A DNA stretch of 64,000 bases, taken from contig CAIRBK010000008.1 in NCBI GenBank assembly GCA_903876795.1, forward strand, positions 1 to 64,000, written 5' to 3'. Below are positions 46,810 through 52,283 of the stretch, one piece after another. The DNA comes from an uncultured Verrucomicrobiota bacterium (GTDB lineage Bacteria; Verrucomicrobiota; Verrucomicrobiia; Opitutales; Opitutaceae). The position numbers and the translations under genes are program-made. Position 1 is the first letter of the stretch; each line of letters starts with the position of its first letter. The notes under the pieces were generated by a model. That model was not told where the DNA came from. It made no database searches and saw nothing but the letters and a program-made list of their open reading frames with translations.

Positions 46810-46838
46810 AGCGTTCATTCGCGTCCATTAGCGGTTAC
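46810..46838. repeat. Short intergenic phrase, family 3, copy ii
   Basis: The sequence contains GCGTTCATTCGCGTCC and ends ATTAGCGGTTAC. It shares the ending (G)CGGTTA(A)C and the TCATT/CATC spacing with 11323-11344 and 60449-60472. It lies 18 bp before the metX start. Confidence 0.35.
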
Positions 46839-46856
46839 ATCGTCGTCTTCCCAAAG

Positions 46857-48074
46857 ATGAACGACGCCGACGCCGAACCCCCTTTCCCCGCCCGCTCCGA
46901 ACCCGGAGAGGTGGGGTTGGTCGAGCCGCGCGACTTCGTTTCCAACGCGCCGTTCACCTTCGACAACGGCCTTGCCATCCCCGGCTTCACCCTGCGCTAC
47001 GAAACCTACGGGCACCTCAACGCCGCGCGCGACAACGCCGTCCTCATCTGCCACGCCCTCTCCGGCGACCACCACTGCGCCGGCATCCACTCGCTCACCG
47101 ACAAAAAGCCCGGCTGGTGGAATAACCTCATCGGCCCAGGCAAGGCCGTGGACACCAACAAATTCTTCGTCCTCTGCGCCAACGTCCTCGGCGGCTGCCA
47201 GGGCTCCACCGGCCCGTCCTCCCTCGATCCGCGCACCGGCCGGCCCTACGGCATCACGTTCCCCGCCGTCACCATCCGCGACATGGTGCGCTCCCAAAAA
47301 CTCTGGCTCGACTCGCTCGGGATCACGTCGCTCTACGCCGCCATCGGCGGCTCCATGGGCGGCATGCAGGTGCTCCAGTGGGCGATCGAATACCCGTCGT
47401 TCGTCAAGCGCGCCCTGGCCATGGCCACCACCGCCCGCGAGGGCGCCCAGGCCATCGCCTTCAACGAGGTCGGCCGCCAGGCAATCCTTCAGGACCCCGA
47501 GTGGAACCACGGCTACTACCCGAAAGGCGGCGGCCCCCGCGTCGGCCTGGCCATCGCCCGCATGATGGCGCACATCACCTACCTCTCCGACGCGTCCATG
47601 GACCGCAAATTCGGCCGCAAGGCCGTGCGGCCGCGCTCCTCCGCCGCCGACACCCCGGCGGCCGCGCCCGCCGCCATCGACTCGATGGAGGGATTGGATG
47701 CGGTCGCTCCCGCCGCCACCTTCGACGTGCGCTTCGAGGTCGAGAGCTACCTGCGCTACCAGGGCCGCAGCTTCATCAACCGCTTCGACGCCAACTCGTA
47801 TCTCTACATCACCCGCGCCCTCGACCAGTTCGATCTCGCCGCCGCGCACGGTTCGCTCGAACAGGCGTTCTCCGGCGTCCAGGCGGCGACCTTGGTCGTC
47901 GGCTTCACCAGCGACTGGCTCTTCCCGCCGGAGCAAAACCGCGCCATCGCCCTCGCCCTCCTGCGCGCCGGCAAACGCGTGAGCTACGCCGAGCTCGCGA
48001 CCGATCTCGGCCACGACTCCTTCCTGCTCGAATCGCCCCAGCTCTACGAGCTCGTGCGCGGTTTCCTCACCTGA
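46857..48074 (+). CDS. metX: Homoserine O-acyltransferase MetX
   Basis: 405 residues. Alpha/beta hydrolase fold with HALSGDHH, the catalytic elbow IGGSMGGMQVLQWA (Ser), the VGFTSDWLFPPEQN Asp and GHDSFLLE His. It activates homoserine with acetyl-CoA (succinyl-CoA in some relatives) for methionine synthesis. An Ala/Pro-rich insert (RPRSSAADTPAAAPAAIDS) interrupts the lid region. metW follows after 3 nt, as in many bacteria with this pathway. Acetyl rather than succinyl donor is the default guess. Confidence 0.92.
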   Translation: MNDADAEPPFPARSEPGEVGLVEPRDFVSNAPFTFDNGLAIPGFTLRYETYGHLNAARDNAVLICHALSGDHHCAGIHSLTDKKPGWWNNLIGPGKAVDTNKFFVLCANVLGGCQGSTGPSSLDPRTGRPYGITFPAVTIRDMVRSQKLWLDSLGITSLYAAIGGSMGGMQVLQWAIEYPSFVKRALAMATTAREGAQAIAFNEVGRQAILQDPEWNHGYYPKGGGPRVGLAIARMMAHITYLSDASMDRKFGRKAVRPRSSAADTPAAAPAAIDSMEGLDAVAPAATFDVRFEVESYLRYQGRSFINRFDANSYLYITRALDQFDLAAAHGSLEQAFSGVQAATLVVGFTSDWLFPPEQNRAIALALLRAGKRVSYAELATDLGHDSFLLESPQLYELVRGFLT

Positions 48075-48077
48075 ACC

Positions 48078-48731
48078 ATGTCCCGCACGGCCCACACGAC
48101 CGCCTCCAAGCCCACCGCCTCCGCGGCCAAGGCCCACCCCGTCAAACGCACGGTCGACATGCAGATCATCGCCGGCTGGGTCGAGCCGGGCTCGCGCGTC
48201 CTCGACCTCGGCTGCGGCCGCGGCGTGCTCCTGGAATACCTGGCCCAGACCAAGCGCGTGCACGCCGTCGGCGTCGATCTCGACTTCGACAAGATCTCCG
48301 CGTGCGTGCGCCGCGGCCTCACCGCCTACCAGGGCGACATGATGGCCCTCATGCGCGCCCTGCCCGAAAACCACTTCGACCGCGTCATCTGCTCGCGCAC
48401 CCTCGAGGAGCTGCCCGACCCCGGGGCCATCATCGAGCAGGCCCTGCGCATCGGCAAAAACGTCACCGTCGGCTTCGTCAACCACGGCTACTGGAAGAAC
48501 CGCGCCGCCGCCTTCTTCCTCGGCCGCAAACCCCAAAACGCGGTCTACACCACCGCCTGGTTCGAGAGCCGGCCCAGCAACCCCGCCAGCATCGCCGACT
48601 TCGAGGACTTCTGCTCGTTGCGCCAACTGCGGATCGCCCGCAGCGCCCACCTGCTCGGCGACTGGAAAAGCCCCTGCCCGCTGGCCCCCAACCTGCTCGC
48701 CGGCTACGCGCTTTACGACCTCACCCGCTGA
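48078..48731 (+). CDS. metW: Methionine biosynthesis protein MetW
   Basis: 217 residues. A class I SAM-methyltransferase-like fold starts with SRVLDLGCGRGVLLEYL, followed by GVDLDFDKISACVRRGL, QGDMMALMRALPENHFDRVI and the LGRKPQ.AVYTTAWFES segment typical of MetW. MetW associates with MetX and is needed for its activity in several bacteria. The N-terminal 20 residues (TTASKPTASAAKAHP) are a low-complexity extension. It lies 3 nt after metX. Confidence 0.93.
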   Translation: MSRTAHTTASKPTASAAKAHPVKRTVDMQIIAGWVEPGSRVLDLGCGRGVLLEYLAQTKRVHAVGVDLDFDKISACVRRGLTAYQGDMMALMRALPENHFDRVICSRTLEELPDPGAIIEQALRIGKNVTVGFVNHGYWKNRAAAFFLGRKPQNAVYTTAWFESRPSNPASIADFEDFCSLRQLRIARSAHLLGDWKSPCPLAPNLLAGYALYDLTR

Positions 48732-48750
48732 GGAAACTTCCATTTCGCCC

Positions 48751-50160
48751 ATGAATATGCCCCCGCTTGTCCCCTCGTTGCTCCTCGGCGGACTGTTCGG
48801 TCTCGCCCCGTTGTTCGCACAGCCCGCCCCCGAAACCGCCCCCGCAACCACCGAGACCGCGCCCGCCGCCGCCAAACCGGCTCCCTCCAAGGAAAAAGAG
48901 CCGCCCGCCGACCCGCTTTCCGACCTTAAAAACGAAAAGGAACGCCTCGCGCTCGAAAACAGCCTCGCCGAGGAAAAACTCCGCCAGCAACTCGCCGACC
49001 TCACCCAAGAGCGCAGCCGGTTGGCCGCCCAGGTTTCCCTGGCCCAGGAGCGCGCCCGCCTCGCCGCCCTCGAACAACAGGCCGAAATCGACCGGCTCAA
49101 ACAGGCCACCGAACTCATCAACCAGAAACTCGCCGCCGCCCAGGCCGAGCGCACCGCCGCCACCGCCGCCGAAGTCGCCGCCCTCAAGCAGAAGACCCAG
49201 CGCCTCCAGGCCGAAAACGAATTGGCCGCCGCCGAAAGCACCAAACGCACCCAGGCCATCCAGCTCGCCAACCAGGAAAACCAGCTCAAGCAACAACAGC
49301 TCCAGGTTGAATTGCAGTCGCTCCAGGCCGAGCGCGCCAAACTCGACACCGAGGTCGCCCGCCTCAATTCCCAGCTCGACCTGCGCGACAAGCGCGACCG
49401 CCTGCGCAACCTCGTCGGCCGCGAGCCCGTTTACACCAAAACTCCGTTCCAGGACGGCGTGCTCACCATCAGCGACCGCCGCATTCCGCTCAACGGCGTC
49501 ATCACCCAGCGCACCGCCGACTACATCCAGGAGCGCATCGATTACTTCAACAACCAGAACACCGAGTATCCCATCTTCATCGTCATCGACAGCTCGCCGG
49601 GCGGCTCCGTCATGGCCGGCTACAAGATCCTCAAGGCCATGGAGGGCAGCGCCGCCCCCGTTTACACCGTGGTGAAATCCTTCGCCGCCAGCATGGCCGC
49701 CGGCATCACCACCCTCTCCGCGCAGTCCTACGCCTACCCCAACGCCATCCTGCTCCACCACCAGATCCTCACCTTCAGCTTCGGCAACCTCACCGAACAG
49801 CGCGAAAGCGTGAAAGACCTCGAGGAATGGTGGCGCCGCCTGGCCGCGCCCATCGCCCAAAAGATGGGCCTCAGCCTGGAGGAGTTCATCAAGCAGATGT
49901 ATTCCAACCGCAGCACCGGCGACTGGATGGCCTTCGGCGACCGCGCCAAGGACCTCAAGTGGGTGGACCACATCGCGCAAACGATCCGCGAGGAATCCCT
50001 CGACCGCAACCCCGACACCGCCACCGCCTCCCCCGCCACCCGCGCCGAGGCCGAGCAGGTGGACGACACCGGCCGCGCCTACCAGAGCCTGCCGCGCCTC
50101 AACCCGGTGGACCGCTACTACCTCTACAACCCCGACGGCTACTACCGCCTCGCGCGCTGA
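48751..50160 (+). CDS. Exported ClpP-like serine protease with coiled-coil domain
   Basis: 469 residues. A signal peptide (MPPLVPSLLLGGLFGLAPLF, end near AQPAPE) is followed by a Pro/Ala linker, a long coiled coil (about 55-225) and a ClpP/SDH-type protease domain. That domain has SSPGGSVMAGYKI, the nucleophile Ser314 in KSFAASMAAGI, His337 in LLHHQ and Asp391 in STGDWMAF, which align with the Ser-His-Asp triad of ClpP. ClpP normally works in the cytoplasm with ClpX or ClpA; this one should be in the periplasm, where those ATPases are absent. The C-terminus is Tyr-rich (DRYYLYNPDGYYRLAR). Confidence 0.85.
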   Translation: MNMPPLVPSLLLGGLFGLAPLFAQPAPETAPATTETAPAAAKPAPSKEKEPPADPLSDLKNEKERLALENSLAEEKLRQQLADLTQERSRLAAQVSLAQERARLAALEQQAEIDRLKQATELINQKLAAAQAERTAATAAEVAALKQKTQRLQAENELAAAESTKRTQAIQLANQENQLKQQQLQVELQSLQAERAKLDTEVARLNSQLDLRDKRDRLRNLVGREPVYTKTPFQDGVLTISDRRIPLNGVITQRTADYIQERIDYFNNQNTEYPIFIVIDSSPGGSVMAGYKILKAMEGSAAPVYTVVKSFAASMAAGITTLSAQSYAYPNAILLHHQILTFSFGNLTEQRESVKDLEEWWRRLAAPIAQKMGLSLEEFIKQMYSNRSTGDWMAFGDRAKDLKWVDHIAQTIREESLDRNPDTATASPATRAEAEQVDDTGRAYQSLPRLNPVDRYYLYNPDGYYRLAR

Positions 50161-50172
50161 GCGGAGAAAAAA

Positions 50173-50199
50173 TGTAACCTTCCGGCGCCGCCGGCGTAA
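50173..50199 (+). promoter_or_regulatory. Putative autoregulated ECF promoter
   Basis: TGTAACC (50173-50179) and CGTAA (50195-50199) are separated by 15 nt and lie 14 nt before the sigma gene ATG. AAC-containing -35 and CGT-containing -10 elements at this spacing are the usual ECF sigma promoter form, and such sigma genes often drive themselves. The prediction rests on pattern only. Confidence 0.45.
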
Positions 50200-50213
50200 G
50201 CGGAGACAAACCC

Positions 50214-50786
50214 ATGCCGGATGCGTCTCCGCCCTCCCAGTCCACCGAACCCCCGCGATCACGGGATGCCCTCCGTGACCGCTTCGAGGACGTCGTGCAT
50301 GCACACGGTGCGCGCCTGCGACGCTTCCTGGCGCGCTACACCGGCGAACCGCACGCCGCCGAGGACCTCGCGCAGGAGACGTTCATCCGCGCCTACCGTC
50401 ATCTCGACCGTTTCGACGACCGGCGCCCCTTCGGCCCGTGGCTGTTCACGCTGGCCGCAAACCTCGGCCGCGATTTTCTACGAGCCCGCTTCCGCCGCGG
50501 CGAAACGTCCGACGGACTCGACGCCCTCGCGGAACCGGCCGACGGCTCGCCCGACCCCGCCGCCGCCTTGCGCGTACGCGAACGCGCCGAGGCCCTTGAG
50601 CACGCCTTGCTTCGCCTGCCCGCCACGCTCCGCGAGCCCGTGCTGCTTCACTACGAACTCGAATGGCCGGTCGCGGCCATCGCCGCCTACCTGCGCATCG
50701 ACGAAGGCGCGGTCAAAACCCGCCTTCACCGCGCCCGACGTCTCCTCCACGCCTGGCTGAGCACCCCGCCCTCCCGATCACCATGA
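50214..50786 (+). CDS. ECF-type RNA polymerase sigma factor
   Basis: 190 residues. Region 2 (HAAEDLAQETFIRAYRHLDRF then GPWLFTLAANLGRDFLRARF) and region 4 (LPATLREPVLLHYELEW, IAAYLRIDEGAVKTRLHRARRLL) are both complete, without other domains, as in extracytoplasmic-function sigma factors. It is coupled by ATGA at 50783-50786 to a membrane protein gene, the position usually held by the anti-sigma factor. A promoter-like TGTAACC/CGTAA pair precedes it. The inducing signal is probably at the envelope, given the downstream genes. Confidence 0.93.
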   Translation: MPDASPPSQSTEPPRSRDALRDRFEDVVHAHGARLRRFLARYTGEPHAAEDLAQETFIRAYRHLDRFDDRRPFGPWLFTLAANLGRDFLRARFRRGETSDGLDALAEPADGSPDPAAALRVRERAEALEHALLRLPATLREPVLLHYELEWPVAAIAAYLRIDEGAVKTRLHRARRLLHAWLSTPPSRSP

Positions 50787-51199
50787 CACCCGAACCGCTT
50801 TTCCCCGAAGACCAACTCCGCGCCCACCTGCAAACCGCGCCGGACACCGCACCCGACCCCGCCTGGGTGCGCGCCGTATGCGCCGGGGCCCGCCACACCC
50901 CGCAGGCGACTCCGGCCGTGCGACTCGCCGCCGCCGCGGCGGTGATCCTCCTCCTGGCGATCATCGCTGCCATCGGCCTGCGCCTGTTCGCACCCGTGCT
51001 CGCACCGGTGTTCGACGCCGCGATCACTTGCGGTCGCACGCTCTGGGCCTTCTCGCAAGGCGCGCCCGCGCTGCTCGCCGACGGCGCCCGCCATCTCGCC
51101 CTCGCGCCGTTCACACCCTGGCTGCTCCTTTCCCTGCTCGCCGTCGAATTCGGCGCGCTCGCCCTCTTCAACCGCCATTCGCCCTCCCGTCATGCTTAA
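50783..51199 (+). CDS. Small membrane protein, candidate anti-sigma factor
   Basis: 138 residues. A cytoplasmic N-terminal part (TPEPLFPEDQLRAHLQTAPD) is followed by two hydrophobic segments (LAAAAAVILLLAIIAAIGL and FTPWLLLSLLAVEFGALALF). It has no zinc-binding Cys/His motif of classic anti-sigma domains. Its role as anti-sigma factor is inferred from gene order and coupling with the sigma gene alone. It overlaps the next gene start by 8 nt. Confidence 0.7.
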   Translation: MTPEPLFPEDQLRAHLQTAPDTAPDPAWVRAVCAGARHTPQATPAVRLAAAAAVILLLAIIAAIGLRLFAPVLAPVFDAAITCGRTLWAFSQGAPALLADGARHLALAPFTPWLLLSLLAVEFGALALFNRHSPSRHA

Positions 51200-52283
51200 T
51201 CTTTCTTCATTCCGCCCGACCGTCCTCGCTTTGCACGGCGCGACCATGTTGTTGCTGGCCCTGCTGTCCGCCGCGCCGGCAAAGGCCGTGACGACCAGCG
51301 ACCTCGCCCAGACATGGGCGGACGAGGCCGCCGCCGCCACCCAAGACGCCGATGTGATCGAGGCGGGCGCCACCGTCTCAAACCTCAGCAGGATAAATCG
51401 CAACGTGGTCGTGCTCGGCGAGGTCAACGGCCCGGTCAACATCGTCAACGGCGACCTCCACGTGCTCGGCCGCGTCAATGGTCCCGTCTCCGTGGCCGCC
51501 GGTCGCGCCACCATTCTGGGCACGGTGAACGGCCGCGTGTCGGTGGTGGGCGGCGACCTGCGCGCGGCCGGCAAGATCCTCGGCGACACCTCGGTGGTGG
51601 GCGGTCGCATCCTGCGCGCAACCGGCGCCCGCATCGACGGAGCGACCTCGTCCGTGGGGCCGGCCGGCCTGAGCTCCATGACCACGTCCTTCAACTTCGA
51701 TTCGGGGAAGGACGCGATCGACCTGCGTCCGAAAACGCTCTGGGTGTGGTGGAGCGTGGGCGCGGGTTTGTTTCTGCTCGTCTGCTGGCTGGCCACATCC
51801 TCGATGATGACGCTGCTTTTCCCCGAAATGGTGCAACGCGCGTCCGAGATGCTCGCGCATGAAACCCTCAAGGTATTCGCCGCCGGCTTGATGTTCTGGT
51901 TTTTCTTCGGCATCGCCGCGCTGGTCGCGGTGCTCCTGAGCGGCTTCCTGATCGGGGTGCCGCTGCTGGGCGGATTGCTGCTGCTCGCCGTGGCGGTGCG
52001 CTGGATCGGCCTGGCCGCCCTGTTTCTGTGGATCGGCCGCGCCCTGCTGCGCAAGGTCCGCGGCGACGCCGCACCCGGCATCTGGGCCTCGCTGTGCGCC
52101 GGCGCGGTCGCGACGGCGCTCGTCCACATGATCCCGCTGGCCGGCATCGCCCTGTGGTTGCTGCTCTTCATCCCGGTCGCCGGCGCGGTCACGCTGGCCT
52201 TCGCCGAACGCCGGCGCGGTCGCGTGACCGTCATCCCGCCGCCTTCCGCACCCGCCCCGTCGACCGGCTTGCCTCAGGGCTGA
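51192..52283 (+). CDS. Membrane protein with polymer-forming (bactofilin-like) beta-helix repeats
   Basis: 363 residues. A signal peptide (LHGATMLLLALLSAAPAKA) is followed by about seven 20-residue turns of the kind seen in bactofilin or polymer-forming proteins (VVVLGEVNGPVNIVNGDLHV, VLGRVNGPVSVAAGRATI, ILGTVNGRVSVVGGDLR). The C-terminal half has four or five membrane helices (LWVWWSVGAGLFLLVCWLA onward). The repeat part should face the periplasm. It ends the sigma/anti-sigma operon and is a likely target or effector of the envelope response. Function unknown. Confidence 0.78.
   Translation: MLNLSSFRPTVLALHGATMLLLALLSAAPAKAVTTSDLAQTWADEAAAATQDADVIEAGATVSNLSRINRNVVVLGEVNGPVNIVNGDLHVLGRVNGPVSVAAGRATILGTVNGRVSVVGGDLRAAGKILGDTSVVGGRILRATGARIDGATSSVGPAGLSSMTTSFNFDSGKDAIDLRPKTLWVWWSVGAGLFLLVCWLATSSMMTLLFPEMVQRASEMLAHETLKVFAAGLMFWFFFGIAALVAVLLSGFLIGVPLLGGLLLLAVAVRWIGLAALFLWIGRALLRKVRGDAAPGIWASLCAGAVATALVHMIPLAGIALWLLLFIPVAGAVTLAFAERRRGRVTVIPPPSAPAPSTGLPQG

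Follow-up and report, generated by a model that had tools for sequence, protein, structure and literature searches.

ClpP is the textbook case of a protease reliant on an ATP-driven unfoldase. The ATP-dependent enzyme is built of two heptameric rings stacked on each other, with the N-termini at the axial pore of the same face that receives the ATPase. How such a protease might operate where no unfoldase is available is the question raised by a gene at positions 48751-50160 (+ strand) of the window, the 64,000-nucleotide stretch of DNA from an uncultured bacterium of the Opitutaceae that was analyzed here. An earlier note on this DNA had read the product from its letters as an apparently exported ClpP-type protease with a 170-residue coiled coil, which may replace the unfoldase as a device for assembly or substrate recruitment. 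We therefore examined the gene, its relatives and its surroundings.

Gene Layout and Relation to ClpP

ORF calling on the window gave a reading frame of 469 aa for the protease. The ATG at 48751 was the earliest start codon available in this frame and lay 20 bases 3' of the metW stop. Two ORFs on the minus strand (48721-50304 and 46815-49409) overlap the gene and were read as high-GC shadows, because the plus-strand protein has homologues in several phyla. The gene was annotated as a putative exported ClpP-type protease with a coiled-coil stalk from the ORF, a Pfam match and a family of 63 collected members, mostly from Verrucomicrobiota. A predicted signal peptide (residues 1-23, 48751-48819) is followed by a linker rich in Pro, Ala and Glu (residues 24-58, 48820-48924), which was predicted to be disordered (pLDDT mostly <50). 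The coiled-coil stalk (residues 59-221, 48925-49413) is joined by a short link to the ClpP (S14) domain (residues 237-412, 49459-49986). Beyond it lies a C-terminal extension (49987-50157) that is absent from ClpP and ends in LPRLNPxDxYYLYNPDGYYR, a tail motif present in most family members.

The Pfam model CLP_protease (PF00574) matched residues 241-386 with an E-value of 5e-17 and 62.8 bits (cut-off 20.2), and all of the 15 family members scanned matched it as well. The AlphaFold model of the domain was superimposed on solved ClpP with a Z of 16.3 over 165 aligned residues (Foldseek E = 1e-12); the structure models are single chains and are weak at residues 339-344, 390-402, and 417-433. The protein resembles ClpP in its predicted fold, in the Ser-His-Asp order, in the PGGS oxyanion motif and in a handle region of similar length. 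The model of the ATP-dependent ClpP equivalog (TIGR00493) gave 41.7 bits, below its cut-off of 308.6. Judged by profiles and predicted structure, the protein belongs to the ClpP (S14) superfamily and falls outside the ATP-dependent ClpP equivalog.

Conservation of the Active Site

The predicted catalytic residues Ser314 (49690-49692) and His337 (49759-49761) aligned with Ser98 and His123 of ClpP in a phmmer alignment to the E. faecium protein (6cfd). Asp391 (49921-49923) was placed on the ClpP Asp because no gap separates it from the 'VD' motif that follows it in the alignment, and this column held the ClpP Asp in five of the six canonical rows that reach it. Across the family the triad stands in the order of ClpP, with Ser and His each conserved in 62 of the 63 members and the third position occupied by Asp in 59 and by Asn in 3. 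Listeria ClpP1 also has Asn at this position. The two glycines of the oxyanion-hole motif PGGSV (Gly284-Gly285, 49600-49605) were kept in 63/63. The family alignment contains conserved triad and oxyanion residues beside a divergent coiled coil. In addition to the conserved tail, a Trp392/Trp404 signature distinguishes the family from ClpP. These results support a C-terminal half with the ClpP fold and an intact active site, as the earlier note had read it, and enzymatic activity is predicted on this basis.

The sole member without a triad, L096-4261 (Gly/Ser/Glu), has a tandem partner in the genome G334. By analogy, this pair would fit an active/inactive arrangement like that of plastid ClpP and ClpR. 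The protease gene is also duplicated in tandem at L093 and L095, which together with L096 belong to G132, G328, and G334, and in G179, G205, G411, and G307.

N-Terminal Signals Across the Family

The window protein begins with MNMPPLVPSLLLGGLFGLAPLFA|QP, in which a signal peptide and a cut (LFA|QP) were proposed from the sequence and from family comparison. Its n-region contains no Lys or Arg, and by itself the signal is only moderately convincing. The family was therefore compared with canonical ClpPs by the most hydrophobic 12-mer found up to 35 residues from any possible Met start, with a Kyte-Doolittle mean of at least 1.6 as the threshold. Such a hydrophobic N-terminal segment was present in 61/63 family members vs 1/24 canonical ClpPs. 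In many members, a stop codon in the same frame shortly 5' of the start forces the start choice, which argues that the signal is no artefact of start-codon choice. Many members also show a short h-region and, after it, an [AGS]-Q/E junction, and lipobox-like motifs occur in some (e.g., FMGC in L104 and LAGC in L096). The protease thus appears to be exported from the cytoplasm, and the family-wide signals lend support to the export that the earlier note had claimed.

The Coiled-Coil Stalk

In the AlphaFold model, residues 59-221 form one continuous helix of 163 residues with a pLDDT mostly of 85-94. A plain heptad coil was rejected, since no significant signal was obtained in the Fourier test over 95-106 degrees, and this failure led to a 25-residue repeat. 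An odd Fourier peak near 158.4 degrees corresponds to the 11th harmonic of 25. In self-comparison, lag 25 gave the strongest average signal (mean z 3.2, the best of lags 1-60). The period scan likewise ranked 25 first, with 0.321 bits per residue over shuffled sequences, followed by 32 (25+7) at 0.224 and 36 (25+11) at 0.156. The repeat is degenerate and built as 7+7+11; each unit carries Leu or Ile at positions 0, 4, 7, 11, 14, and 18 and an Ala-rich opposite face. This spacing is the 3-4 pattern of coiled coils, with 25 residues in 7 turns.

The lengths of gaps between relatives peaked at 4, 7, 14, 18, and 25, with dips beside the peaks. Among all pairs with >62% domain identity, which are not independent of one another, an indel of 25 residues was found in 36 pairs, compared with 6 pairs for 24 and 0 pairs for 26. 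For example, L006, L007, and L008 are 85-89% identical in the domain and differ in length by 25 or 50 residues. The stalk comprises about 163 residues in the window protein (~24 nm if straight) and roughly 100-250 across the family. As the length differences fall on coiled-coil phases, the long coiled coil of the earlier note is real and of free length. Selection appears to act on the phase and to leave sequence and length much more freedom. Because the coil sequence drifts while the phase is kept, a device for assembly, spacing or oligomerization seems to fit better than substrate recruitment or a specific binding surface.

Loss of the H-Site Tyrosine

AAA+ ATPases dock their IGF loops into hydrophobic H sites of ClpP, and Tyr63 of SaClpP lies in that site (PMC9035409, PMC6853987). 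The Y63A mutation of S. aureus ClpP opened the pore and left the enzyme active without a partner ATPase (PMC9035409, PMC6853987). In the window protein, the residue paired with position 63 of the E. faecium ClpP chain (6cfd) in a gap-free alignment is Val278 (49582-49584). This position was occupied by Val in 58, Ile in 4, and Met in 1 of the 63 members and by Tyr in none, whereas the canonical ClpP rows of the same set had Tyr in 25 of 26 and Phe in the remaining one. Furthermore, the stalk and the link stand where ClpP has its N-terminal axial-loop segment. With the tyrosine lost and the axial loops replaced, the family looks unfit for normal docking of a Clp ATPase. The pore may be open by default, although V278 differs from the Y63A change and one H-site position was compared. 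The comparison suggests that independence from Clp ATPases is likely, in line with the point of the earlier note that cytoplasmic AAA+ partners would not be available.

The genome of the window also retains two ordinary ClpPs for use in the cytoplasm. No ClpX match over the cut-off was found in it; a ClpP gene (C61:3-521) sits at the end of its contig, so that clpX was possibly cut off. A fourth, weak ClpP-domain match of 28 bits was observed at G000:C97:48494-48778 (L004) in a frame of 609 aa, possibly an NfeD- or SppA-like protein.

Distribution and Gene Neighborhood

A scoring model built from 15 members separated the family, at 182 bits or more, from ordinary ClpP at 64 bits or less. In the tree, the family lay on one side of a branch with a support of 95/88 that was recovered in 97% of bootstrap trees, and two long-branch groups meet at this branch. 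The scan of one genome per species found 15 full-length relatives. A relative from the cultivable Geminisphaera colitermitum TAV2 (L005) is 73% identical. The protease was present in 33 of the 387 Verrucomicrobiota genomes sampled, in 7/246 genomes of the phylum to which a Planctomycetota MAG belongs, in 2/195 of that of a MAG carrying the label Deltaproteobacteria, and in 1/200 in the order of a Sulfurovum MAG. Among the 37 genomes searched as relatives, it was found only in G000 and three others, so that the distribution is patchy. The Sulfurovum MAG (G414) has two copies on different contigs (L104 and L105), which are sisters within a Verrucomicrobiota group; they either reached Campylobacterota by gene transfer or reflect a contaminated MAG. 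A mobile origin of the protease was rejected, as the plasmids and phage records searched contained no full-length family match.

The nearest genes to the protease in the window are metX, metW, and an ECF sigma factor, and the metX-metW-protease order was absent from the relatives compared (34 loci). Besides the protease, no gene cluster occurred in more than six of these 34 loci. An obligate or universal partner gene was therefore rejected, and the co-occurring periplasmic partner that the earlier note had suggested looking for was not borne out as a general feature. The nearest approach to it is c1, a membrane protein of roughly 280 aa with one or two spans and no Pfam match, which adjoins the protease gene in two Verrucomicrobiota families (e.g., L087:7315-8172 (-) and L092:4440-5219 (+)). 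The c1 gene lies directly upstream of the protease in 10 genomes and one gene off in an eleventh. It is absent from 16 of the 33 protease genomes, including that of the window, and 20 of the 37 c1 genomes have no protease. At most, c1 is a lineage-specific helper of the protease. In Rubritalea, a gene for an HlyD-type adaptor lies 3' of the protease gene, and haem genes adjoin it in some Opitutaceae.

Directly downstream in the window, positions 50214-52283 hold the ECF sigma factor, followed by a reading frame that has membrane spans and by a membrane protein with weak similarity to bactofilins. These genes could be an envelope-stress operon.

Discussion

On balance, we lean toward reading the protein as an exported, ATP-independent serine peptidase of the ClpP type, in which the coiled coil replaces the axial loops; its export, oligomer and activity are deduced from sequence and models. 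A Sec-type signal would carry it across the inner membrane, where most members would be soluble and periplasmic and the few with a lipobox would be lipid-anchored. The C-terminal half is predicted to fold as ClpP and would hydrolyze peptide bonds via Ser314-His337-Asp391. The N-terminal coiled coil would assist or determine assembly into a ClpP-like ring, and the stalk bundle would be expected to rise from the face where the ATPase would dock, because the N-terminus of ClpP sits there. No unfoldase would be needed, the exchange of the H-site Tyr for Val, Ile or Met being a change related to the pore-opening Y63A of S. aureus. The substrates would be periplasmic peptides or unfolded proteins, with the stalk as a spacer, tether or gate. 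More tentatively, the protease may gate itself: the bundle on the axial face, to which each subunit would contribute one stalk, would keep the pore open or filter substrates by length and flexibility, and would set the distance to the membrane in units of 25 residues.

ClpP folds that work outside the cytoplasm without an AAA+ partner are known. SppA is a membrane-bound octamer of this kind, and its K199A mutant is inactive (PMC7568657). Given its predicted location and oligomer, the family would be, like SppA, an oligomeric serine protease that has the ClpP fold, acts beyond the cytoplasm and lacks an AAA+ partner; SppA differs in its catalytic machinery, its membrane domain and the lack of a coiled-coil stalk. 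NfeD1b proteins carry a ClpP-type domain (PMC2636767), and these partners of stomatin operons likewise have it without AAA+ feeding; in contrast to the family, their protease domain comes first and the NfeD domain after it, and they are linked to SPFH genes. The observation of the earlier note is confirmed and its interpretation supported in part, for the apparent export, the active site, the coiled coil and the likely ATPase independence; the role of the coil in assembly or recruitment is a proposal, and the novelty is less than the note had stated. An extracytoplasmic ClpP fold without AAA+ is known from SppA (PMC7568657), and a ClpP-type domain from NfeD1b (PMC2636767). The literature searched held no description of a coiled-coil stalk on an S14 protein. 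Nothing relevant on exported, periplasmic or secreted ClpP was found there either (most subscription journals lie outside this literature).

These relatives also suggest an unlikely alternative, in which the N-terminus stays uncleaved or is lipidated, the stalk spaces the protease from the inner membrane, and membrane or newly secreted proteins are trimmed in an SppA- or NfeD-like manner. The lipobox-like motifs of several members, the action of SppA and NfeD relatives at membranes (PMC7568657, PMC2636767) and a weak profile similarity to both are consistent with such tethering. However, the scores for SppA (S49; 25.3 bits, cut-off 155.45) and NfeD1b_N (17.6 bits, cut-off 40) are far exceeded by that for PF00574, no NfeD domain was found, no adjoining SPFH or stomatin gene was recognized among the genes scanned, and most members have the short h-region and [AGS]-Q/E type junction. 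Slightly less probable still is a narrow processing protease that picks one substrate through pairing of its coiled coil with that of a partner. The patchy spread among Verrucomicrobiota would fit a special role, and so would the position of c1 upstream of the protease; yet each of the two genes often occurs without the other, and the drift of the coil sequence and its length changes by whole units would be odd for a specific binding surface.

Phage head maturation proteases are ATP-independent, have the ClpP fold and are often tied to a coiled-coil scaffold. Capture of such a protease, with the signal gained later, is improbable, even though the PHROG head maturation profile (phrog_94) scored 65.6 bits, on par with the 62.8 bits of Pfam ClpP. 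The NCBIfam head maturation model gave 54.5 bits, below its cut-off of 120, and of the 50,697 phage records none covered 80% of the query, the matches listed covering <40%. The phage enzymes are also cytoplasmic and encoded in capsid gene clusters with the scaffold after the protease, whereas in the family the coiled coil precedes the protease domain. Moreover, capture concerns the origin and says little on present function. It is very improbable that the N-terminal stretch is no export signal, or that the protein serves as a structural coiled coil and its protease is dead: the window signal does lack positive charge and the tandem copy L096-4261 has lost its triad, but N-terminal signals in 61 and the catalytic Ser and His in 62 of the 63 members argue against both.

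Returning to the exported, ATP-independent peptidase, what is new here is the degenerate 25-residue (7+7+11) repeat of the stalk, its phase-keeping lengths and the loss of the H-site Tyr in 63/63 members. The family offers a ready test of the role of this tyrosine. If the reading is true, a conserved branch of S14 outside the cytoplasm, with its docking tyrosine lost and an N-terminal stalk gained, would represent a gated protease re-plumbed to run without energy, and it may add a hitherto unnoticed member to the periplasmic quality-control proteases of Verrucomicrobiota and some Planctomycetota.
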